Shown here: positions 40,732 through 49,150 of the stretch, in pieces
How the letters are laid out: each line of letters opens with the position of its first letter
Numbering within the stretch: position 1 is the first letter of the stretch
Assembly (NCBI RefSeq): GCF_036924745.1
Contig: NZ_JAZHSD010000001.1
Coordinates: 2,604,001 to 2,668,000, forward strand
Reading direction: 5' to 3'
Source: Bradyrhizobium sp. AZCC 1693
GTDB lineage: Bacteria; Pseudomonadota; Alphaproteobacteria; Rhizobiales; Xanthobacteraceae
Length of the DNA stretch: 64,000 nucleotides
The notes under the pieces: model-generated
Databases searched by the model: none
Told to the model about the DNA's origin: nothing
The model's input: the letters and a program-made list of their open reading frames with translations, nothing else
Program-made: the position numbers and the translations under genes

Positions 40732-41490
40732 GTGGCGACACCGTCACGCTCCTTTCTGTGCCTCCGCCACGGCGTCACCGACTGGAACGCTCAAGGCCTG
40801 TTTCAGGGCCGCACCGATGTTCCCTTGAACGGCGAAGGCATTGCTCAAGCGCATGCGGCGGCAGAACGGCTACGAAATATACCTTTCGACCATGTCGTGG
40901 CCAGTCCGCTGTCCCGTGCGCTGAAGACCGCCGAGATCATCGCCTCGGCAAGGCACACGCCGCTCGATGTCGATGATGGCATCATCGAATGCGACTTCGG
41001 CAGCCTCGAGGGAACGTCGATTGCGGAGACGATGAAGGCGCACGGCCTGCGGACGGTGGAAGACCTGGTTTCCATTCTGCCGCCGGATGGCGAACCATGG
41101 CCGTCAATCTCTGCGCGAGCGCTAAGCTGCGTCAGCCGATGGTTCCACCGTCATCCGCAAGCAGTAATCTTGTTCGTCTGCCACGATGCCGTGATGCAGG
41201 CGATGTCGGAAGCGCTCTGCGGCCAGTGGATCGACAACCGCCACGGCACGCTGTTCAGGTATGACAGAGCTGGCGATGTCTGGAGTGTTGCCGAGGTGGA
41301 TAGCCTCGCCCCACTCTCGATGTCGTCCCTGCGAACGCAGGGACCCATAACCACCGGCTCTTGTTGTTCTGGAAGGCGTCAGCCATCTCGCTTCAACCGA
41401 GAGAACAACGCGATATGGGTCCCTGCGTTCGCAGGGACGACGGTGGAATCTAGTTCGGGCAGATGTACCCCGTCCCCGACGGCGACTTGA
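40732..41490 (+). CDS. Histidine phosphatase family protein with repeat-derived tail
   Basis: This belongs to the phosphoglycerate-mutase-like family: LCLRHGVTDWNAQGLFQGRTD holds the catalytic histidine, and FVCHDAVMQA the second histidine. The start is a GTG at 40732. Family-like sequence ends near residue 196. The remaining ~56 residues are coded by a family A repeat (41322-41441) with no stop until 41490. The tail also overlaps the convergent TRAP permease gene by 41 bp. The tail is therefore probably a late addition. Confidence 0.85.
   Translation: MATPSRSFLCLRHGVTDWNAQGLFQGRTDVPLNGEGIAQAHAAAERLRNIPFDHVVASPLSRALKTAEIIASARHTPLDVDDGIIECDFGSLEGTSIAETMKAHGLRTVEDLVSILPPDGEPWPSISARALSCVSRWFHRHPQAVILFVCHDAVMQAMSEALCGQWIDNRHGTLFRYDRAGDVWSVAEVDSLAPLSMSSLRTQGPITTGSCCSGRRQPSRFNRENNAIWVPAFAGTTVESSSGRCTPSPTAT
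41322..41441. repeat. Composite repeat, family A (copy 3), inside a coding frame
   Basis: GTCGTCCCTGCGAACGCAGG at the left and CCTGCGTTCGCAGGGACGAC at the right frame 120 bp. It lies inside the 3' end of the histidine phosphatase frame and just past the end of the TRAP permease gene. Confidence 0.8.
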
Positions 41491-42790
41491 AGCAGCCGAC
41501 CGATTCCGGGATCACCTGTTTCGGCAGCCACAGCACGACCTTCGGGAAATAGATCGTGAAGGTGATGGTCACGAGGAACACCACATAGATCGGCAACGCC
41601 GCGCGCAGCGCCTTGGAGAACGGGACGCCGACGAATTTCGAGGCCATCAACAGCACCAATCCGTATGGTGGCGTGATCAGCCCGAATGCCAATGTCGCGA
41701 TCAGCACGACGCCCATGTGAACGGCGTTGATGTCGCCGGCCTGGGTCAGCGTGTTCACCAGCGGCATGAAGATGATGATGGTCGGCACCGGCTCGATGAA
41801 ATCGCCGACCACGGTGAACAGCAGCACCAGCAGCAGCATGATCAGATGCGGATCGTTGCCGGCGATCGCGATGATCCAGTCGGCGATTACGGAGGCGCCG
41901 CGCAGGTAGGCCAGCATCCAGCCGAACGCGTTGGCGGCGCCGATCGTGATCAGCGGCAGCGAGAAGATCAGCCCGGCGAGACAGAAATCATAGGGGATGT
42001 TCTTGAAGTGCCCGCGGTTGAGCGCGGGGATCACCACCGCGATGATCCAGATCACGGCGACGACGCCGGCTTCCGTCGGCGTGAAGGCGCCGGTTAGGAT
42101 GCCGCCGAGCAGGATGACGGGGATCATCAGCGGCAGGACAGCGTCGCCAGCCGCGAACACGATCTGCTTCAACGGCGCGCGCGGCCTCTGCATCCCGGTG
42201 GGCCCGAAGAAGAAGCAATAGATCATCAGGCCGAAGCCGATCATCAACCCGGGCACGACGCCGGCCATGAACAGGCCGGCGATCGAGACGTTGCCTACCG
42301 CGCCGTAGACCACGGCGGTGATGCTCGGCGGCACCAGCGCCGCGATGGTGGAAGCGGCGGCGATGATCGCGGCGATGAAAGCGGGGCTATATCCCTCCTT
42401 CTTCATCGGTCCGCCCAGCGCGCGGGTCATCACGGCGACGTCGGCGGTGGTCGATCCCGACATTTCCGAGAAGAACATCGAGAACACGACCACGACCTGC
42501 GAGAGCCCGCCCCTGATATGCCCGACCAGCGACAGCGACAGGTTGGCTATTCGCACCACCACGTTGGCCGAGCTCATGAGTTCGCCGACCAGGAGAAAGA
42601 ACGGTATCGCCAGCAGCGCTTCCGAATCCACGCCGTCGAAAATCTTCTGCATGATGGCGGCGAGCGAGACGTCGGCCAGCAACGCGCCGACGAAAACCCC
42701 GGCCATCAGCGAGAACGGCACCGGCACGCCGAGATAGCCGAAGAACAGGAAGCAGAACGTCATCAGGCCGAGAATGACGGGCGCGCTCAC
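41450..42790 (-). CDS. dctM: TRAP transporter large permease (DctM)
   Basis: This 446-residue inner-membrane protein has about a dozen hydrophobic segments and the DctM pattern: FFLLVGELMSSANVVVRIA, SGSTTADVAVMTRALG and ALVPPSITAVVYGAVGNVSI. It is the sodium-driven transport subunit of a TRAP system, which works with a periplasmic binding protein. It overlaps the small permease gene by four bases. The C-terminal tail ending CPN reaches into the convergent phosphatase gene. Confidence 0.94.
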   Translation of the reverse strand: MSAPVILGLMTFCFLFFGYLGVPVPFSLMAGVFVGALLADVSLAAIMQKIFDGVDSEALLAIPFFLLVGELMSSANVVVRIANLSLSLVGHIRGGLSQVVVVFSMFFSEMSGSTTADVAVMTRALGGPMKKEGYSPAFIAAIIAAASTIAALVPPSITAVVYGAVGNVSIAGLFMAGVVPGLMIGFGLMIYCFFFGPTGMQRPRAPLKQIVFAAGDAVLPLMIPVILLGGILTGAFTPTEAGVVAVIWIIAVVIPALNRGHFKNIPYDFCLAGLIFSLPLITIGAANAFGWMLAYLRGASVIADWIIAIAGNDPHLIMLLLVLLFTVVGDFIEPVPTIIIFMPLVNTLTQAGDINAVHMGVVLIATLAFGLITPPYGLVLLMASKFVGVPFSKALRAALPIYVVFLVTITFTIYFPKVVLWLPKQVIPESVGCFKSPSGTGYICPN

Positions 42791-43371
42791 GGCTGCCCCC
42801 TGTTCTGGAAGCCTGTGTCGGCGGGCGGACTGTCGCCAGCGTCGTCAAGCGGCTCGGGATGGTCGAAGCCGTTGCGGATTCCATTGACGAGCTGTTCGAC
42901 GGTGAACAGCGCGATCAGCACGCCCGAGAGCGGGATCGCGGCATAGAGCGAGGCGATCGGGGTGTTCGACGGCAGCCGGAAACTGCCGAAGCCCCTGATA
43001 TAGTTGACGTAGCCGTAATAGATCAGAACCCCCGCCACCGACAGCACCACGACGCGGATCAGGATCTCGACGATCAGCCGCGGCGTGCCATGCATCGCCT
43101 CGGAGACCGCGGTCAGATAGAGATGATCATTGCGGCGCGTGGCGACCGCGGCGCCGATGAAGATGGCATAGATAAACAGCGTTGAGGTGAGCTCCTGCAG
43201 CCATAGCCATGGATTGCCGAGGGTCCGCGTGACGATATCGGCCGTGACCGACAGCGAAAATCCAAAACACAGCACGCCGCAGATGATCATCAGGATCAGT
43301 TCGAGCCGGTCCAGCGACCGCCATTTCAGATGATGCTGGCGCTGCAGCACCAGTTTGTCGGCAATGGACAT
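42787..43371 (-). CDS. dctQ: TRAP transporter small permease (DctQ)
   Basis: This 194-residue protein has four hydrophobic segments and the DctQ pattern VTRTLGNPWLWLQELTSTLF and HLYLTAVSEAM. The start at 43371 gives MSIADKLV; the frame is open further upstream into a repeat and is not used. DctQ and DctM form the membrane part of the TRAP importer for organic or sugar acids. Confidence 0.92.
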   Translation of the reverse strand: MSIADKLVLQRQHHLKWRSLDRLELILMIICGVLCFGFSLSVTADIVTRTLGNPWLWLQELTSTLFIYAIFIGAAVATRRNDHLYLTAVSEAMHGTPRLIVEILIRVVVLSVAGVLIYYGYVNYIRGFGSFRLPSNTPIASLYAAIPLSGVLIALFTVEQLVNGIRNGFDHPEPLDDAGDSPPADTGFQNRGQP

Positions 43372-43392
43372 CTTGACTTCACACTCTCTGTC

Positions 43393-43511
43393 GTCGTCCC
43401 TGCGAAAGCAGGGACCCATAACCACAGGGGTTCGTTGTTTGCAGAGGCTGGCTAACCGATCGCTCAACCGGCAGGCCGCGGCGTATGGGTCCCTGCTTTC
43501 GCCGGGACGAC
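43393..43511. repeat. Composite repeat, family A (copy 4)
   Basis: GTCGTCCCTGCGAAAGCAGG at the left and CCTGCTTTCGCCGGGACGAC at the right frame about 119 bp between the DctP and DctQ genes. Both halves carry compensating changes (GAAAGC/GCTTTC in place of GAACGC/GCGTTC), as expected if pairing within the repeat matters. Confidence 0.8.
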
Positions 43512-43526
43512 TCGCGGAGAGAGGAA

Positions 43527-44528
43527 CTAATTGATCGCCCGGATCAGCGTCTTGATCTTGTCGGCGTGCGGGCCGAGCTCCCTGGCAAGCTTGTCGAGAT
43601 AGGGATCGGCGATCTTCTGGAAGCTCGCCTTGTCGACATCCTTGACGATCTTGACGCCCATCTTCTCGAGCTTCGTCGCGGCCGTATTCTCCAGGTCGAA
43701 AGCCCGCTTCGGTTCCTGGACGCTGACATCCCGCGCGGCGGCCAGCACCCATTTCTTCTGCTCGTCATTGAGGCTCTGCCACAGTCTGTCGCTGAGCCAC
43801 AGGATGCAGTTATTTGCCTCGTGACCGGTCATCGACATGACCGGCGCGACTTCATAGTGCTTGTTGATCATGTAGACGTTGACCGCGTTCTCGCCGAAAT
43901 CCACCACGCCGGTTTGCAGCGAGGTGTAGACGCTGCCGAACGGCATGTGCACCGTCTGGGCGCTGTAGGCCGGGAACATCATGTCTTCGGTCGCGGTCGC
44001 CTGGACGCGGACCTTCAGGCTCTTCATATCCTCGGGCTTGCGCACCTCCTTCTTGCCGTACATGTGCCGAAAACCCTGGGTGCCGAGGCCGATGGCGTGA
44101 ATGCCCTGGGTGGTGCCGTCGATCATGTCGCGAACGGCTTCGAACACCTTCTCGTCGCCGAGCGCCTTGATGTTGTGTTCTTCCGAGCGGAACAGGAAAT
44201 GCAGCGACATCACGCCGGCCTGCGGCGAGATCGTCGACGTGTTGGCGGACGACACGACCGCGAAATCGAGATCGCCGGCCTTCACGAGTTGCAGGAGCTG
44301 CGGTTCCTGCCCGAGCTGCGCGCCGGGAAACTGGTCGACCAGCATCGTGCCCTTGCTCAACTCCTTCAGCTTCGCTGAAAAAATATCGTAGGCGATGCTG
44401 TAGCCGGAATTGAGCTGCTGATCGTGCGCGAAGCGATAATGCTTCGCTTCCTGTGCGCCCGCGCCGGTAGCGAGCATGACGGTCGCAGCGGCAATCGCCG
44501 CGAAGATCGATTTCCCTGGATTCCCCAT
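43527..44528 (-). CDS. dctP: TRAP transporter substrate-binding protein (DctP)
   Basis: This 333-residue periplasmic protein has a signal peptide (cut probably after GAQ, residue about 26). Core motifs include YRFAHDQQLNSGYSIAYDIF, the LKVRVQATATEDMMF stretch with the acid-binding arginine, and FGSVYTSLQTGVVDFGENAV. The start at 44528 has GGGGGGAAA before it. A 9-bp-arm hairpin and two copies of a 15-bp operator lie upstream. Regulation by the GntR protein at 47556 is inferred. The likely ligand is a uronate or aldonate. Confidence 0.94.
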   Translation of the reverse strand: MGNPGKSIFAAIAAATVMLATGAGAQEAKHYRFAHDQQLNSGYSIAYDIFSAKLKELSKGTMLVDQFPGAQLGQEPQLLQLVKAGDLDFAVVSSANTSTISPQAGVMSLHFLFRSEEHNIKALGDEKVFEAVRDMIDGTTQGIHAIGLGTQGFRHMYGKKEVRKPEDMKSLKVRVQATATEDMMFPAYSAQTVHMPFGSVYTSLQTGVVDFGENAVNVYMINKHYEVAPVMSMTGHEANNCILWLSDRLWQSLNDEQKKWVLAAARDVSVQEPKRAFDLENTAATKLEKMGVKIVKDVDKASFQKIADPYLDKLARELGPHADKIKTLIRAIN

Positions 44529-44546: not shown

Positions 44547-44570
44547 GGTTTGATTTTTCCCAATCAAACC
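44547..44570. promoter_or_regulatory. Hairpin in the DctP leader
   Basis: GGTTTGATT and AATCAAACC form perfect 9-bp arms around a 6-nt loop, starting 19 bases before the DctP start codon and just upstream of its ribosome site. It could affect translation or mRNA stability, or be a second protein site. Confidence 0.45.
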
Positions 44571-44581
44571 ATCAGGGCAAC

Positions 44582-44596
44582 GAGATTGTCAATAAA
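44582..44596. promoter_or_regulatory. GntR-type operator copy 1 (TRAP operon)
   Basis: GAGATTGTCAATAAA matches the ATTATTGnCAATAAT dyad at 10 of 14 defined positions, with the core ATTGTCAATAA intact. It is 54 bp upstream of the DctP start. Its centre is 63 bp from the next copy. Confidence 0.55.
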
Positions 44597-44644
44597 GTAT
44601 CGGAATTATCTGCCAGAACGGGCCAGATCGTGGCCAGAAGGCCA

Positions 44645-44659
44645 ATAATTGTCGATAAT
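44645..44659. promoter_or_regulatory. GntR-type operator copy 2 (TRAP operon)
   Basis: ATAATTGTCGATAAT matches the same dyad at 12 of 14 positions. It lies 117 bp upstream of DctP, shortly before the end of the dehydratase gene. Confidence 0.6.
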
Positions 44660-44677
44660 TCACACCCGCCCCAGGAG

Positions 44678-46384
44678 CTAGTCCCTGCCCTGCCCGCGCA
44701 TGAAATCGAAGTCGCAACCTTCGTCGGCCTGCAGAATAGTCTCGTTGAACAGGTGCGCGTAGCCGCGCCTGGCCCATTCGGGCGTGACGGCCGGTGCAAG
44801 CGCCGTGCGGCGCTTCGCAAGCTCCGCCGCGTCGACCAGGAGATCGATGCTGCGTTTCGCGACATCGAGGCGGATCATGTCGCCGTTCCTGACGAGCGCC
44901 AGCGGGCCGCCCACGGCGGATTCCGGCGTGATGTGCAGCACGATGGTGCCGAACGCCGTCCCGCTCATGCGCGCGTCCGATATCCGCACCATGTCCTTGA
45001 CGCCGCCGCGAGCGAGTTTCTTCGGGATCGGCAGATAGCCGGCCTCCGGCATGCCCGGCGCACCCTTGGGGCCGGCATTGCGCAGCACCAGCACGTCATC
45101 GGCGTTGACGTCGAGATCGGGATCGTCGACCCGCAGCGTCATGTCCTCGACGGATTCGAACACCACGGCACGGCCGGTATGCTGCAGCAGTTTCGGGCTT
45201 GCCGCCGACTGCTTGATGACGGCTCCACGCGGCGCGAGGTTGCCGTGCAGCACTGCCATCGCACCTTCGCGCTTGATCGGATTGTCGCGCGGACGGATGG
45301 CGTCCTGTCCGGGCACCTCCTCGGCGTCGGCGACGACATCGCGCAGCGTTTGCCCCGTAATGGTCTTGGCATCGAGATCGATAAGATCGCCGAGCTGCGC
45401 CATCAGTTTGGGCACGCCGCCGGCATGATGGAAATGCTCCATGTAATGCTCGCCTGACGGTTTCAGGTCGATCAGCACAGGCACTTCGCGGCCGAGCTTG
45501 TCGAACGCCTCGAGATCAATGCGGTGTTTCGTGCGGTTGGCGATCGCCGTTAGATGAATAAGCCCGTTGGTCGAGCCGCCGATCGCCTGCAGCACCACCT
45601 GCGCGTTCCGGAATGAGGCCGGGGTCAGCAATTCACTCGGCTTTGGCCCCTTCGCCTTGGCCATCACAGCCGCCACCCTGCCGCTCGCCTCCGCCGAGCG
45701 AACGCGCTCGGCATGCGGCGCCGGGATCGTCGCGCTCATCGGCAGCGAAAGCCCCAGCGCCTCGGTGATGCACGCCATGGTCGAGGCAGTGCCCATCACC
45801 ATGCAGGTGCCGACGGACGGCGCCAGCCGGCCGTTGACGGCTTCGATTTCAATGTCGTCAATTTCGCCGGCGCGATATTTTCCCCACAGCCTCCGGCAAT
45901 CCGTGCACGCCCCCAGCACCTCGCCCTTGTGATGCCCGACCACCATCGGCCCCACCGGAATGACGACGGTCGGCAGATCGGCGGAGACTGCCGCCATGAT
46001 CTGCGCCGGCAAGGTCTTGTCGCAACCGCCGATCACGATCACGGCGTCCATCGGCTGCGCGCGGATCATCTCCTCGGTGTCCATCGCCATCAGATTGCGC
46101 AGATACATCGAGGTCGGAAACGCAAAGCTCTCGGCGATCGAGATAGTCGGGAACACCATCGGCATCGCGCCCGACAGCATCACGCCGCGCTTCACGGCTT
46201 CAATGATCTGCGGAACGTTGCCGTGACAGGGATTGTAGTCGCTATAGGTATTGGTGATGCCGACGATCGGCCTGTTCAGCGCATCATCCGAATAACCCAT
46301 CGCCTTGATGAAGGCCTTGCGCAGGAACAGCGAGAAGCCAGCATCGCCATAACTCGTCAGTCCCTTGCGAAGTCCGTCGGCCAT
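44678..46384 (-). CDS. IlvD/Edd family dehydratase (sugar-acid type)
   Basis: This 568-residue iron-sulfur dehydratase has the three cluster cysteines in NPCHGN (C53), GGCDKT (C121) and GTCMVMG (C194). The C-terminal domain holds RISDARMSGTAFG, with the catalytic serine. IlvD acts on dihydroxy acids, but relatives dehydrate aldonates such as arabonate, xylonate or gluconate. The neighbours (TRAP importer, uronate dehydrogenase, lactonase) favour a sugar acid here. The start at 46384 has GGAAGAA before it. Its promoter region carries two copies of the shared operator. Confidence 0.92.
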   Translation of the reverse strand: MADGLRKGLTSYGDAGFSLFLRKAFIKAMGYSDDALNRPIVGITNTYSDYNPCHGNVPQIIEAVKRGVMLSGAMPMVFPTISIAESFAFPTSMYLRNLMAMDTEEMIRAQPMDAVIVIGGCDKTLPAQIMAAVSADLPTVVIPVGPMVVGHHKGEVLGACTDCRRLWGKYRAGEIDDIEIEAVNGRLAPSVGTCMVMGTASTMACITEALGLSLPMSATIPAPHAERVRSAEASGRVAAVMAKAKGPKPSELLTPASFRNAQVVLQAIGGSTNGLIHLTAIANRTKHRIDLEAFDKLGREVPVLIDLKPSGEHYMEHFHHAGGVPKLMAQLGDLIDLDAKTITGQTLRDVVADAEEVPGQDAIRPRDNPIKREGAMAVLHGNLAPRGAVIKQSAASPKLLQHTGRAVVFESVEDMTLRVDDPDLDVNADDVLVLRNAGPKGAPGMPEAGYLPIPKKLARGGVKDMVRISDARMSGTAFGTIVLHITPESAVGGPLALVRNGDMIRLDVAKRSIDLLVDAAELAKRRTALAPAVTPEWARRGYAHLFNETILQADEGCDFDFMRGQGRD

Positions 46385-46429
46385 TTTTTCTTCCTGTCGT
46401 TGCGGGTGGGCACTTAAGGAGTCCACCGA

Positions 46430-46444
46430 ATTATTGTCAATGCT
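46430..46444. promoter_or_regulatory. GntR-type operator copy 3
   Basis: ATTATTGTCAATGCT matches the dyad ATTATTGnCAATAAT at 12 of 14 positions. It is 46 bp upstream of the dehydratase start. Its centre (46437) is 63 bp from that of copy 4. Confidence 0.6.
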
Positions 46445-46492
46445 TGACTATTGGCGGATATGCGGCCTCATTTTGCCCGCATCCAACGCGAT

Positions 46493-46507
46493 ATTATTGA
46501 CAATAAT
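46493..46507. promoter_or_regulatory. GntR-type operator copy 4 (perfect dyad)
   Basis: ATTATTGACAATAAT has perfect 7-bp arms around one base. It lies 45 bp before the Gfo start, in the gap between the divergent dehydratase and Gfo-GntR genes. Confidence 0.68.
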
Positions 46508-46551
46508 GCGAGTGCGTGCTGACTTCCGGCCATGATCGGAACCGTCTGTCC

Positions 46552-47559
46552 ATGAACCAACCATTGCGCATTGGCCTGATCGGCGCCGGCATGGTGAGCC
46601 GTCACCATCTCATCGCCTGGGCGAGCATATCAGATCAGGCCCGCGTCGTGGCGGTCGCCGATCCCTCCGGCGAAAATGCCGCGCGGCGCGCGAGCGAGTT
46701 CGAAATCCCGCAGACCTGGGGCAGCGCCGAGGCGATGCTGGCTGCAACCGAACTCGACGCCATCGATATCGCTGCGCCACGGGAAATGCACGCGCCGCTG
46801 GTTCGCCTCGCCGCCAAACATCGGCTGCACGTGCTTTGCCAGAAGCCGCTTGCGCCCAACCTGCAGGAGGCAACCGACCTTGCGGCCGAAGTCGAGGATC
46901 TGACGCGGCTGATGGTGCATGAGAACTGGCGCTTTCGCGGCTATTACCGTGACGCGGCCGCATGGCTGCGCGAGGGACGCATCGGCCAAGTCAAACAGGC
47001 GCAGCTGACGCTTTTGACATCGGGTGTATTGCCGGGGCCTGACGGGCTTTGCCCGGCGCTGGAGCGGCAGCCCTTCATGCGCCGGGAGCGACGCATGCTG
47101 GTCGCCGAGGTCCTGATCCATCACCTCGATACGCTGCGCATGCTGCTCGGGCCGCTGCAGGTTACCGCAGCGCAGCTCTCCCGCTCGAGCGAACAACTCG
47201 TCGGCGAAGATGGCGCGGTGATCCAGCTTCGGGCTGACAATGGCGCTGCAGTTTCGGTCTTTGCAAGCTTCGCCGCCCACGGGCATCCGGCCGTACAGGT
47301 CGACCGGCTGGAGATTCTCGGCGACAAGGGCGCGATCAGGCTCGACGGGCCATCGCTGACTTGCTCGGGGGCGTCTCCCGGCGAGCGCACATACGATCTC
47401 GCCGTCGAGTATCAGGGTTCCTACAACCGGACGATCGCGCATTTCGTGAAGTCGCTCCGCGACGTCTCGCCCTTCGAGACGGCGCCGCAAGACAATCTCG
47501 AGACCTTGCGCCTGGTCGAGGATTGCTATCGGCTGTCGGGCTGGGAGACCTTGCGATGA
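46552..47559 (+). CDS. Gfo/Idh/MocA family oxidoreductase (GntR operon)
   Basis: This 335-residue NAD(P)-dependent oxidoreductase begins with LRIGLIGAGMVSRHH (nucleotide-binding GxGxxx loop) and has the QKPLAPN motif in place of the usual EKP, where Gln replaces Glu. The C-terminal domain has LVAEVLIHHLDTLRMLLGP with likely active-site histidines. The GntR gene overlaps its stop by four bases. It probably oxidises a sugar or sugar acid in the same pathway as the dehydratase. Confidence 0.9.
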   Translation: MNQPLRIGLIGAGMVSRHHLIAWASISDQARVVAVADPSGENAARRASEFEIPQTWGSAEAMLAATELDAIDIAAPREMHAPLVRLAAKHRLHVLCQKPLAPNLQEATDLAAEVEDLTRLMVHENWRFRGYYRDAAAWLREGRIGQVKQAQLTLLTSGVLPGPDGLCPALERQPFMRRERRMLVAEVLIHHLDTLRMLLGPLQVTAAQLSRSSEQLVGEDGAVIQLRADNGAAVSVFASFAAHGHPAVQVDRLEILGDKGAIRLDGPSLTCSGASPGERTYDLAVEYQGSYNRTIAHFVKSLRDVSPFETAPQDNLETLRLVEDCYRLSGWETLR

Positions 47560-48248
47560 AGCCGCAGGAATCATTGACCGAGATTTCCGCGCCGACGCGC
47601 GAGGAGGAGCAGGCCGAAGTCATCCGCCGGCTGGAGGAGGACATCATCTTCGGCCGCTTCGCGCCGGGCTCGCGGCTGGTCGAAGACACGTTGATGACGC
47701 GCTACGGCGCCAGCCGGCATTTCGTGCGCCAGGCGCTGTTCCAGCTCGAACGCCAGGGCATCGTACTGCGCGAGAAAAACATCGGCGCCACGGTGCGGTT
47801 CTATTCGGCCGAGGAGGTGCGCCAGATCTACGAGGTGCGGGAAATGCTGACGCGGCAGGCGGCGCTGATGATTGCACTCCCCGCCCCGGCCAGCCTGATC
47901 GAGCAGCTCAGCGAATTGCAGCGGCAATATTGCGCCAGGGCCGACGCGCAGGATCTGCGCGGCATCCACGAGGCCAACGACGCCTTTCACGTCGCGCTGT
48001 TCTCGGCCTGCGGCAACCCGTATCTGGTGCGCTCGCTGCAGGACTACATGAACCTGACGCTGCCGATGCGCGCCAAGAATCTCGCCGACCGAGAGGGACT
48101 GGCGCTATCCCGCCGCCAGCACGAATTGATGATCGAGCTGTTGAAGGGCCGCGACAGCTGGGCGCTGGCGCAGCTCTGCGTCGATCACATGCAGTTCAGC
48201 AAGTCGGATTATCTCGGGCGGATTAGTCGCGACTCGGACGCAAGATAG
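47556..48248 (+). CDS. GntR family regulator (FCD/FadR type)
   Basis: This 230-residue regulator has a winged helix (VIRRLEEDIIFGRFAPGSRL, then RYGASRHFVRQALFQLERQGIV) and an FCD ligand domain with the metal-site pattern HEANDAFHVALFSACGNPY and RRQHELMIELL. FCD regulators often sense sugar acids. It is coupled by ATGA to the Gfo gene. It is the natural candidate to bind the four 15-bp dyads around the TRAP, dehydratase and Gfo promoters, including its own operon's. Confidence 0.92.
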   Translation: MKPQESLTEISAPTREEEQAEVIRRLEEDIIFGRFAPGSRLVEDTLMTRYGASRHFVRQALFQLERQGIVLREKNIGATVRFYSAEEVRQIYEVREMLTRQAALMIALPAPASLIEQLSELQRQYCARADAQDLRGIHEANDAFHVALFSACGNPYLVRSLQDYMNLTLPMRAKNLADREGLALSRRQHELMIELLKGRDSWALAQLCVDHMQFSKSDYLGRISRDSDAR

Positions 48249-48253
48249 AGACC

Positions 48254-48325
48254 GTCATTCCGGGGCACGCGAAGCGTGAACCCGGAATCTCGAGATTCCG
48301 GGTTCGCTACGCGCCCCGGAATGAC
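48254..48325. terminator. Hairpin repeat between convergent genes (family E)
   Basis: GTCATTCCGGGGC at the left and GCCCCGGAATGAC at the right form the outer stem. An inner stem CCCGGAATCT/AGATTCCGGG meets at CTCGAG. It exactly fills the gap between the GntR gene and the convergent uronate dehydrogenase gene, so it can end transcription from both sides. Confidence 0.72.
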
Positions 48326-48328
48326 GTG

Positions 48329-49150
48329 TCACTTCTTCCAATCCACGATCCCGCTCCTGTCGCCGTCGAACTCCATGCTGCAAAACGTGCCGCCCTGGTA
48401 GTAATCGCCGACCGGATCCGGCTTGAGCTTGGCCTGCTCGGCCATCGCGTGTTCGCGGAAATCTTCTCCGCGGCCGGTCGGCCGGTAGCCGAGCTCGTAG
48501 GCGCGATGGTTGTCCCACCAGGCGCGCTCGTTATGGGAGGCGCCGTAGAATATCTCGAAGTGAATGTCGGGATGATCGAGCCCGATGCGGCAGAGCTGCA
48601 CCAGGTCCTCCGGCTTCAGCCAGATCGACAGGCGGCGATGATCGAGCGGCATCTCGCCGAAATTGCCGATCCGGATACAAGTGACGCCAAGCCCATGCTT
48701 GTCGGCATAGAGCGCGCCGACCGCCTCGCCGAACACCTTGCTGACGCCATAGCGGCTGTCCGGCCGCGCGGTGACGTCCGTGCCGATCCGGTGGTGGCGC
48801 GGATAGAAGCCGACCGCGTGGTTCGACGAGGCGAACACCACGCGCTTGACGCCCTTCTTCCGCGTCGCCTCGAACAGGTTGTAGCCGCCGATGATGTTGG
48901 CCTGCAGGATCTGGTCCCAGGGGCCTTCGACCGAATAGCCGCCGAAATGCAGGATGCCGTCGACGCCCTCGCAGATCGCCTCGACCTGCGACATGTCGGC
49001 GAGATCGGCCGCCTTGAACTTCTCGTCCTTGCCGAGATCGGCCGGCGCGGTCAAATCGCTCAGCAGCAGGTCGGGATAGATCGGCGGCAGCAGCTTGCGC
49101 AGGGATGTGCCGATCCCGCCGGCAGCGCCGGTCATCAATATGCGTGGCAT
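48329..49150 (-). CDS. udh: Uronate dehydrogenase-like SDR
   Basis: This 273-residue extended short-chain dehydrogenase has the NAD motif TGAAGGIG (residues 7-14) and the catalytic pair Tyr134/Lys138 (RYGVSKVFGE). The stretches ILHFGGYSVEGPWDQILQAN, VFASSNHAVGFYP and ASHNERAWWDN match my memory of Agrobacterium uronate dehydrogenase closely. That enzyme oxidises galacturonate or glucuronate to an aldaro-lactone. It is divergent from an SMP-30 lactonase gene, which would open that lactone. Confidence 0.88.
   Translation of the reverse strand: MPRILMTGAAGGIGTSLRKLLPPIYPDLLLSDLTAPADLGKDEKFKAADLADMSQVEAICEGVDGILHFGGYSVEGPWDQILQANIIGGYNLFEATRKKGVKRVVFASSNHAVGFYPRHHRIGTDVTARPDSRYGVSKVFGEAVGALYADKHGLGVTCIRIGNFGEMPLDHRRLSIWLKPEDLVQLCRIGLDHPDIHFEIFYGASHNERAWWDNHRAYELGYRPTGRGEDFREHAMAEQAKLKPDPVGDYYQGGTFCSMEFDGDRSGIVDWKK

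Follow-up and report, generated by a model that had tools for sequence, protein, structure and literature searches.

Paired dyads at a putative sugar-acid locus of Bradyrhizobium as probable operators of the neighbouring VanR-type GntR regulator

Why does one bacterial locus carry the same dyad four times, in two pairs of equal spacing, and which protein would use these sites? The question is raised by a stretch of 64,000 nucleotides from Bradyrhizobium sp. AZCC 1693 (contig NZ_JAZHSD010000001.1, positions 2,604,001 to 2,668,000), analysed here in its full length, referred to as the window and used as the frame for all coordinates. The initial annotation, made from the window sequence, had reported copies of a 15-bp dyad at 44582, 44645, 46430 and 46493, matching 10, 12, 12 and 14 of 14 defined positions, and had attributed them to the GntR protein encoded at 47556. 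All four were re-found with these scores, i.e. with 4 mismatches in GAGATTGTCAATAAA, 2 in ATAATTGTCGATAAT, 2 in ATTATTGTCAATGCT and none in ATTATTGACAATAAT, and the distance of 63 bp claimed for both pairs is right (centres 44589/44652 and 46437/46500). Pair 1 lies between ilvD, encoding a dehydratase, and dctP, encoding a transporter component, both of which are read leftward, while pair 2 occupies the gap between ilvD and the divergent gfo-gntR genes. The dyads and the predicted elements within or near them are as follows:

44582..44596, minus strand: dyad 1, predicted proximal dctP operator; TTGACA as candidate -35 at 44587-44592, candidate -10 TTTGAT at 44563-44568 (N18)
44645..44659, minus strand: dyad 2, predicted distal operator of dctP, situated 63 bp further upstream than dyad 1 and with no recognised promoter belonging to it
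46430..46444, minus strand: dyad 3, predicted ilvD operator; TTGACA at 46435-46440, candidate -10 TTAAGT at 46412-46417 (N17)
46493..46507, plus strand: dyad 4, predicted gfo/gntR operator and a perfect dyad; TTGACA at 46497-46502, -10 position 46520-46525 reading TGACTT

As paired dyads track gntR from genome to genome and three of the four hold TTGACA inside, the dyads are most likely operators of the neighbouring GntR protein, a VanR-type member of the FCD subfamily, lying over -35 boxes. We regard it as probable that paired operators of this repressor are the best overall explanation. The placement of GntR operators on -35 boxes is the part of which we are highly confident; functional cooperation within a pair is moderately favoured, and we lean slightly against a true DNA loop or bridge.

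The proposed mechanism is as follows. A GntR dimer on the -35 dyad would keep RNA polymerase off, and cooperation with another dimer, bound some six helical turns further upstream, would strengthen the repression, in the simplest form as a dimer of dimers bridging both sites. Either -35 operator of the divergent gap would double as the upstream operator of the other promoter, and at dctP a dedicated, weaker distal operator would serve as the upstream partner. Release of the repressor would be triggered by an intermediate of the sugar-acid pathway, with joint induction of catabolism, uptake and the regulator itself as the result.

The evidence comes mainly from relatives. The best 80 of 177 stretches encoding a GntR relative were taken from named genomes, and the closest named relatives of the protein among these 80 belong to Bradyrhizobium (96% identity). 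One locus, L026, was dropped, its contig being without ilvD; the remaining 79, with ilvD on the contig, and the window gave 80 loci carrying gntR. Exactly two copies of the core ATTGNCAAT were found in the gap between ilvD and gfo/gntR in every one of them (80/80).

Genomes that keep ilvD and are devoid of gntR provide the comparison. Of 242 genomes sampled from the genus, 233 gave a match to ilvD and 168 one to gntR, which leaves 74 with no gntR match; the regulator seems to be often lost while the enzyme is kept, some of the genomes being incomplete. Absence is understood here as no match at E 1e-60 (genus sample) or 1e-50 (order sample). The set without gntR comprised 38 of the 74, in which the ilvD place had been located beforehand or was among the matches listed and was matched by eye, and one genome of another genus, 39 in total; the ilvD upstream stretch of L179 was only 277 bp long and paralogous ilvD rows (L165-L172) were left uncounted. 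In none of the 39 genomes did the 300 bp upstream of ilvD hold two cores. Judging by this difference (80/80 against 0/39), the GntR protein encoded at 47556 is very probably the user of the sites, as the initial annotation had suggested.

Inspection of the dyads revealed that three of the four include TTGACA, facing outward and in the position expected of a -35 hexamer. These hexamers had been overlooked when the geometry of the pairs was first described; the geometry itself stands, and part of it follows from back-to-back promoters. When the 42 loci with cores 61-64 bp apart were aligned on the core, each gap dyad showed twelve invariant positions, the right dyad reading ATTATTGACAAT and the left one, read towards ilvD, ATTGACAATAAT. 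In the 38 loci with 65-67 bp the right dyad was again ATTATTGACAAT (97-100% per position) and the left, read towards ilvD, TTATTGACAAT (100%). Each conserved block, read outward, includes TTGACA. On the ilvD side of the 61-64-bp group TTAAGT follows at N17 (conserved 71-97% per position), while elements containing CCACA are found at that distance on either side in the 65-67-bp group. In front of dctP, TTGACA is followed by GATGAT or TTTGAT at N18. On the gntR side of the window's group the -10 position is weak (TGACTT in the window) and poorly conserved, which makes the gfo/gntR promoter uncertain. From conservation and position we infer that TTGACA and the downstream elements are the -35 and -10 of ilvD and dctP and, less surely, of gfo/gntR.

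The sites before dctP were scored in 54 loci carrying gntR (window included) with dctP close behind ilvD. Two loci with dctP more than 760 bp from ilvD were set apart: both dctP sites occur in L032, at a distance of 62 bp, and neither in L028. The TTGACA-N18 promoter was present in 19 of the 54 loci, and in all 19 it was accompanied both by the TTTATTGACAAT arm and by a distal dyad 63-66 bp upstream with 1-2 core mismatches. Among the genomes without gntR, dctP was found in ten and TTGACA-N18-GATGAT in nine of these, in which neither the TTTATTG arm (0/9, versus 19/19 with gntR) nor, at the threshold used for the loci with gntR, the distal dyad (0/9) was detected. For the distal dyad the difference corresponds to a Fisher probability of 1.4e-7, with kinship ignored. 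A similar separation was observed at ilvD: TTGACA stood at the expected position in 16 of the 39 genomes, with the core intact in eight and broken in eight (e.g. GTTGACAAC), as compared with an intact core in 80/80 loci with gntR (Fisher 9.7e-8 for the rows having TTGACA, kinship ignored). In the genomes sampled, then, the arm and the distal dyad go with gntR, and the -35 does not.

Overall, the operator system is real, well supported and of a familiar type of bacterial switch; its interesting parts are the paired layout and the separation of the -35 from the operator arm in genomes devoid of gntR. The latter genomes constitute a natural evolutionary experiment, in which -35 boxes devoid of operator arms separate the constraint of the promoter from that of the operator.

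The spacing within the pairs bears on cooperation. In relatives the core-core distance of the gap pair stays within a narrow range, namely 61 bp in 1 locus, 62 in 11, 63 in 28, 64 in 2, 65 in 10, 66 in 24 and 67 in 4 (n = 80). Thus, the claim of a conserved spacing stands for the range and fails for the exact value of 63 bp, which occurs in only 28/80 loci and had to be rejected as a rule, as a whole species group is at 65-67 bp and other families have 89 or 123-124 bp. The strict placement of paired sites on the same face of the helix is for the same reasons unsupported as a rule; at 10.5 bp per turn the distances found across families correspond to 5.8-6.4 turns (61-67 bp), 7.0-7.1 (74-75), 8.5 (89) and 11.7-11.8 (123-124).

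Within the genus the distance varies less than its surroundings. Its standard deviation was 1.64 (n = 78); the distance to ilvD had one of 2.75 and that to the next gene on the gfo/gntR side one of 24.6. The spacer between the cores had a median ungapped identity of 48% (pairs of equal length). Regressed on gap length over gaps of 149-296 bp, with L017 and L056 (gaps above 300 bp) left aside, the distance gave a slope of 0.013 (r 0.19, p 0.09, n = 78, the sequences being related), and the slopes within the group of at most 64 bp and within that of at least 65 bp were close to 0. On the gntR tree at least 20 changes are needed to explain the spacing, as against 35 for the distance on the ilvD side and 46 for that on the opposite side. 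Because the inter-site distance is independent of gap length, cooperative pairs are plausible, and to this extent the cooperative binding first proposed for the pairs fits, while the exact spacing on which it leaned does not. As for the dctP pair, no promoter is recognised at its distal dyad, so the distance of about six turns recurs there in a different geometry.

The observed behaviour can be compared with the constant-distance divergons of the FadR subfamily (Suvorova et al. 2015, PMC4494728), in which the regulator gene is divergent from a structural operon and two sites keep a distance independent of the gap, and for which such double sites were read as cooperative control of both operons. 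As in their class 1, the distance here does not depend on the intergenic length and the regulator belongs to the divergon; unlike in that class, the pair is not centred with both gene distances growing and is tied to the ilvD side. Those divergons differ also in their typical motif, GT-N2/3-AC, and the main text makes no mention of Bradyrhizobium. For a matching pair at a non-divergent promoter, as seen here, no description was met in the parts of PMC4494728 covered. The same paper mentions extra half-sites at 7-12 nt; a recurring GATAAT half-site a few bases past the left dyad (ATTATTGTCAATATGAGATAATC), noted by eye in several clade-1 loci (e.g. L035, L039, L041), resembles them.

The main rival explanation, which we consider unlikely though a serious contender, is that the operators are independent: each dyad covers its own -35, and the 61-67 bp are a leftover of back-to-back promoters, with no cooperation or loop. 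The outward TTGACA in each gap dyad agrees with it, as does the drift of the spacing between 61 and 67 bp and its difference in other families; moreover, 71 of 100 double-site divergons of the FadR subfamily that include the regulator gene behave as separate sites (PMC4494728). However, a distance that ignores gap length is a mark of common cooperative sites in that survey, and the distal dctP dyad, present at 63-66 bp in 19/19 loci and absent from 9/9 genomes without gntR, has no recognised promoter to cover. Independent operators would therefore account for the gap and not for this dyad.

On the side of paired operators, a sharper version can be proposed only tentatively, namely that a VanR-type dimer of dimers spans about six turns and clamps the -35 operator together with a second operator 61-67 bp away. 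Such a span would be set up twice in one locus, in two geometries (the divergent gap and the dctP upstream site), and a bridge of 61-67 bp would presumably need sharply bent DNA. If it is true, clades with 89, 123-124 and 74-75 bp would represent retuned versions of the same switch.

Several observations weigh against paired GntR operators over promoters and have to be set beside the evidence given so far. None of the proposed promoters was picked up when an E. coli-type consensus was scanned for; their -10 elements are non-consensus, and the pattern was chosen after the sequences had been viewed. In the other 35 of the 54 scored loci, all of the group with wide spacing at ilvD, neither the promoter nor the dyads were present before dctP, so that dctP is presumably read there as part of the ilvD transcript. 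With 1-2 mismatches in its core, the distal dctP site is degenerate, and the gap spacing is not fixed within the genus, with its range of 61-67 bp and 20 changes on the tree. The nine-base core is kept at 8/16 ilvD and 4/9 dctP promoters of genomes without gntR. A deletion that takes out gntR may also carry away the second dyad of the ilvD gap, which makes the dctP sites the cleaner test. The direction of the arm change, loss or gain, is not polarised by these data: on a weak tree built from 300 bp of ilvD, the smallest clade with the nine genomes also holds 42 rows with gntR, 20 of them with the dctP pair, and the presence of gntR changes 20-22 times. Finally, three loci of one family (L133-L135, family f24) encode GntR orthologues of 62-63% identity, and neither ilvD nor dyads were found near these genes, which stand in another context.

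The protein itself belongs to the FCD subfamily of the GntR superfamily, as PF00392 (E 1.8e-14) and PF07729 (E 1.9e-24) were both matched above their curated cut-offs; no NCBIfam model was matched at cut-off, the best being TIGR03338 with 105.7 bits against 271.5. Its structure was predicted as a single chain, with a mean predicted local distance difference test score (pLDDT) of 84.6 for the best model and 72.5 to 54.3 for the other four. The best model shows six FCD helices (85-104, 112-130, 134-150, 155-172 with a one-residue break, 179-196 and 201-229), and the first effector-domain helix is located right behind the wing. In the VanR subgroup no additional helix follows the linker where the effector domain begins (PMC7797058), leaving six in that domain, and by its model the protein belongs to this subgroup. 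The best fold matches were 7U5Q, Atu1419, PmiR, 6EP3, McbR, AlkR (VanR) and 3IHU, with query-normalised template modelling scores (TM-scores) of about 0.55-0.72; those called VanR in PMC7797058 (Atu1419, 6EP3, McbR, 3IHU, 2HS5 and TM0439) all ranked ahead of E. coli FadR. Metal-binding FCD regulators coordinate the metal by three histidines and Asn/Asp (PMC7797058), and N141, H145, H189 and H211, invariant in 18 aligned sequences, would by residue fit a site of that kind.

The closest described parallel is Atu1419 of Agrobacterium fabrum, a VanR-subgroup FCD repressor of known structure (PDB 6Z74, 6ZA0, 6ZA3, 6ZA7 and 6ZAB), the tetramer of which was seen by electron microscopy to loop two palindromes 190 bp apart, a second pair being at 109 bp (PMC7797058). 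Both regulators are FCD proteins of the subgroup devoid of the extra effector-domain helix, Atu1419 being a repressor and the GntR protein a predicted one; both adjoin their actual or presumed targets, and in both cases palindromes lie on actual or putative elements of divergent promoters, a second promoter having one intact palindrome and one that is degenerate. They differ in the palindrome (ATGTATACAT for Atu1419, ATTATTGNCAATAAT here), in the distances (190 and 109 bp versus 61-67 bp) and in function, as Atu1419 controls hydroxycinnamic-acid degradation with a folate effector; the identity in the fold matches to the GntR protein was only 21-23%. Cooperative binding with looping at paired operators in sugar catabolism is also described for AraR of Bacillus subtilis (PMC4494728), which differs in belonging to the AraR subfamily of the GntR family. 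For the sugar-acid repressor DgoR of Escherichia coli, too, two inverted repeats are described that overlap its promoter, but it is assigned to the FadR family (PMC7674646). Literature searches by family, mechanism, pathway and organism yielded no description of this regulator, as judged by titles and abstract openings, and those by motif spellings yielded matches unrelated by title. The operator, regulon and mechanism proposed here are open to testing for a GntR family of Bradyrhizobium and several related families.

It could be argued that another regulator uses the dyads and that gntR is a mere neighbour, which we judge improbable. The motif is without the GT-Nx-AC signature usual for FadR-type regulators (PMC4494728, x being 2-3); the dyad TTGNCAA agrees instead with TNG(N)1CNA, a case of the GntR operator signature TNG(N)nCNA cited in PMC7797058. 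The orthologues of L133-L135, which have no dyads nearby, would also suit another regulator. Against this, dyads and gntR co-occur in the genus and in other families, even where gntR lies about 5 kb away, other shared regulators not having been searched for.

The evidence from other families comes from an order sample of 397 genomes. At E 1e-50, gntR was matched in 25 of these, including 15 that do not belong to the genus. Eleven of these 15 loci had ilvD nearby, and two dyads were present in the ilvD gap in ten of the eleven, some of the second ones with 2 core mismatches; the remaining locus, L146, showed a single clear dyad. The distances of the ten pairs were 66, 66, 65 and 66 bp in four loci, 123-124 bp in five and 89 bp in one, and a further weak match was seen between the two dyads in L145 and L153. 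In L144 and L145 gfo-gntR is about 5 kb from the dyads, and the pair is still at ilvD. In the 123-bp group (L150-L154, families f6 and f16) the second dyad, as seen by eye, coincides in part with the sequence immediately ahead of the gfo start, and about 2 kb beyond gntR four of the five loci (L150, L151, L153 and L154) have another dyad set, 74-75 bp apart, extended in L153 by one more dyad 33 bp further on. One related dyad was also noticed by eye shortly before gntR in L142, whose GntR protein is 47% identical.

It is very improbable that the dyads are promoter elements only, i.e. TTGACA -35 boxes of divergent promoters with an incidental symmetry. Such a view would explain TTGACA in three dyads and the -10-like elements conserved at N17-18 before ilvD and dctP, but twelve invariant positions per gap dyad in 42 loci are twice the size of a -35 box, the hexamer can stay in the genomes devoid of gntR while the core is broken (8/16 at ilvD) or the arm is absent (9/9 at dctP), and no promoter is recognised at the distal dctP dyad. 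Chance repeats, in whose favour the same number of matches was reached in 2 of 100 shuffled versions of the window, have a vanishingly small probability and are already contradicted by the two gap cores kept in 80/80 loci.

Taken alone, the window is only moderately convincing evidence for the dyads. It contains three copies of the core, all at this locus (dyad 44645 has one core mismatch), and three matches to the full pattern with at most 3 mismatches, versus 0.46 expected; from base composition alone, the chance of two cores in one gap is about 2e-6. The initial annotation had found no such sites elsewhere, which is true for the window, including the gap between the uronate dehydrogenase and lactonase genes, where no dyad was found at up to 3 mismatches; a scan of the 7.6-Mb genome gave no convincing further target. 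With up to 3 mismatches there were 73 places, versus 24 for the reversed pattern, and of seven inspected places with 3 mismatches (L009-L015) three were outside open reading frames (ORFs) of at least 100 codons. With up to 2 mismatches there were eight places, three at this locus and five inside mechanical ORFs, one of which is short (104 codons), with one place near an ORF start. The paired pattern TTGNCRAT...TTGNCRAT with starts 47-77 bp apart was matched in 44 rows when both strands are counted, versus 0 and 2 for the reversed pattern as control; of the 44, only the two pairs of this locus combine 63 bp with A/T at both centres.

The genes of the locus are the following:

47556..48248, plus strand: gntR, FCD/VanR-type GntR regulator of 230 aa, the presumed binder of the dyads
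44678..46384, minus strand: ilvD, IlvD/EDD-family dehydratase, presumably for a sugar acid, divergent from gfo-gntR
46552..47559, plus strand: gfo, Gfo/Idh/MocA oxidoreductase, in the same direction as gntR
41450..44528, minus strand: dctP-dctQ-dctM, tripartite ATP-independent periplasmic (TRAP) transporter (dctP 43527-44528, dctQ about 42787-43317, dctM 41450-42790)
48329..49150, minus strand: uronate dehydrogenase-like gene, by PDB sequence matches

The locus looks like one for uronate or sugar-acid use. Among the four best PDB matches of the 48329..49150 product (E 2.6e-69 to 1.5e-64), three carry the name uronate dehydrogenase, and an SMP-30 lactonase-like gene comes after this gene. The ilvD product has IlvD/EDD enzymes as its PDB relatives and scores above the cut-off of the NCBIfam dihydroxy-acid dehydratase subfamily and below that of L-arabinonate dehydratase.

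In many relatives gfo is absent or a remnant. It is missing between the dyads and gntR in L016, L017, L019 and L056 (gap 295-325 bp, with a remnant visible in L016 and L019), which brings gntR more directly behind its promoter. A repeat resembling a repetitive extragenic palindrome, with the inverted parts GTCATTCCGGGGC...GAATGAC, was noticed by eye behind gntR (window about 48254-48327), and a similar one directly upstream of ilvD in L162, L178, L182 and L195, which are devoid of gntR. As similar repeats stand in both places, they may mark a deletion junction.

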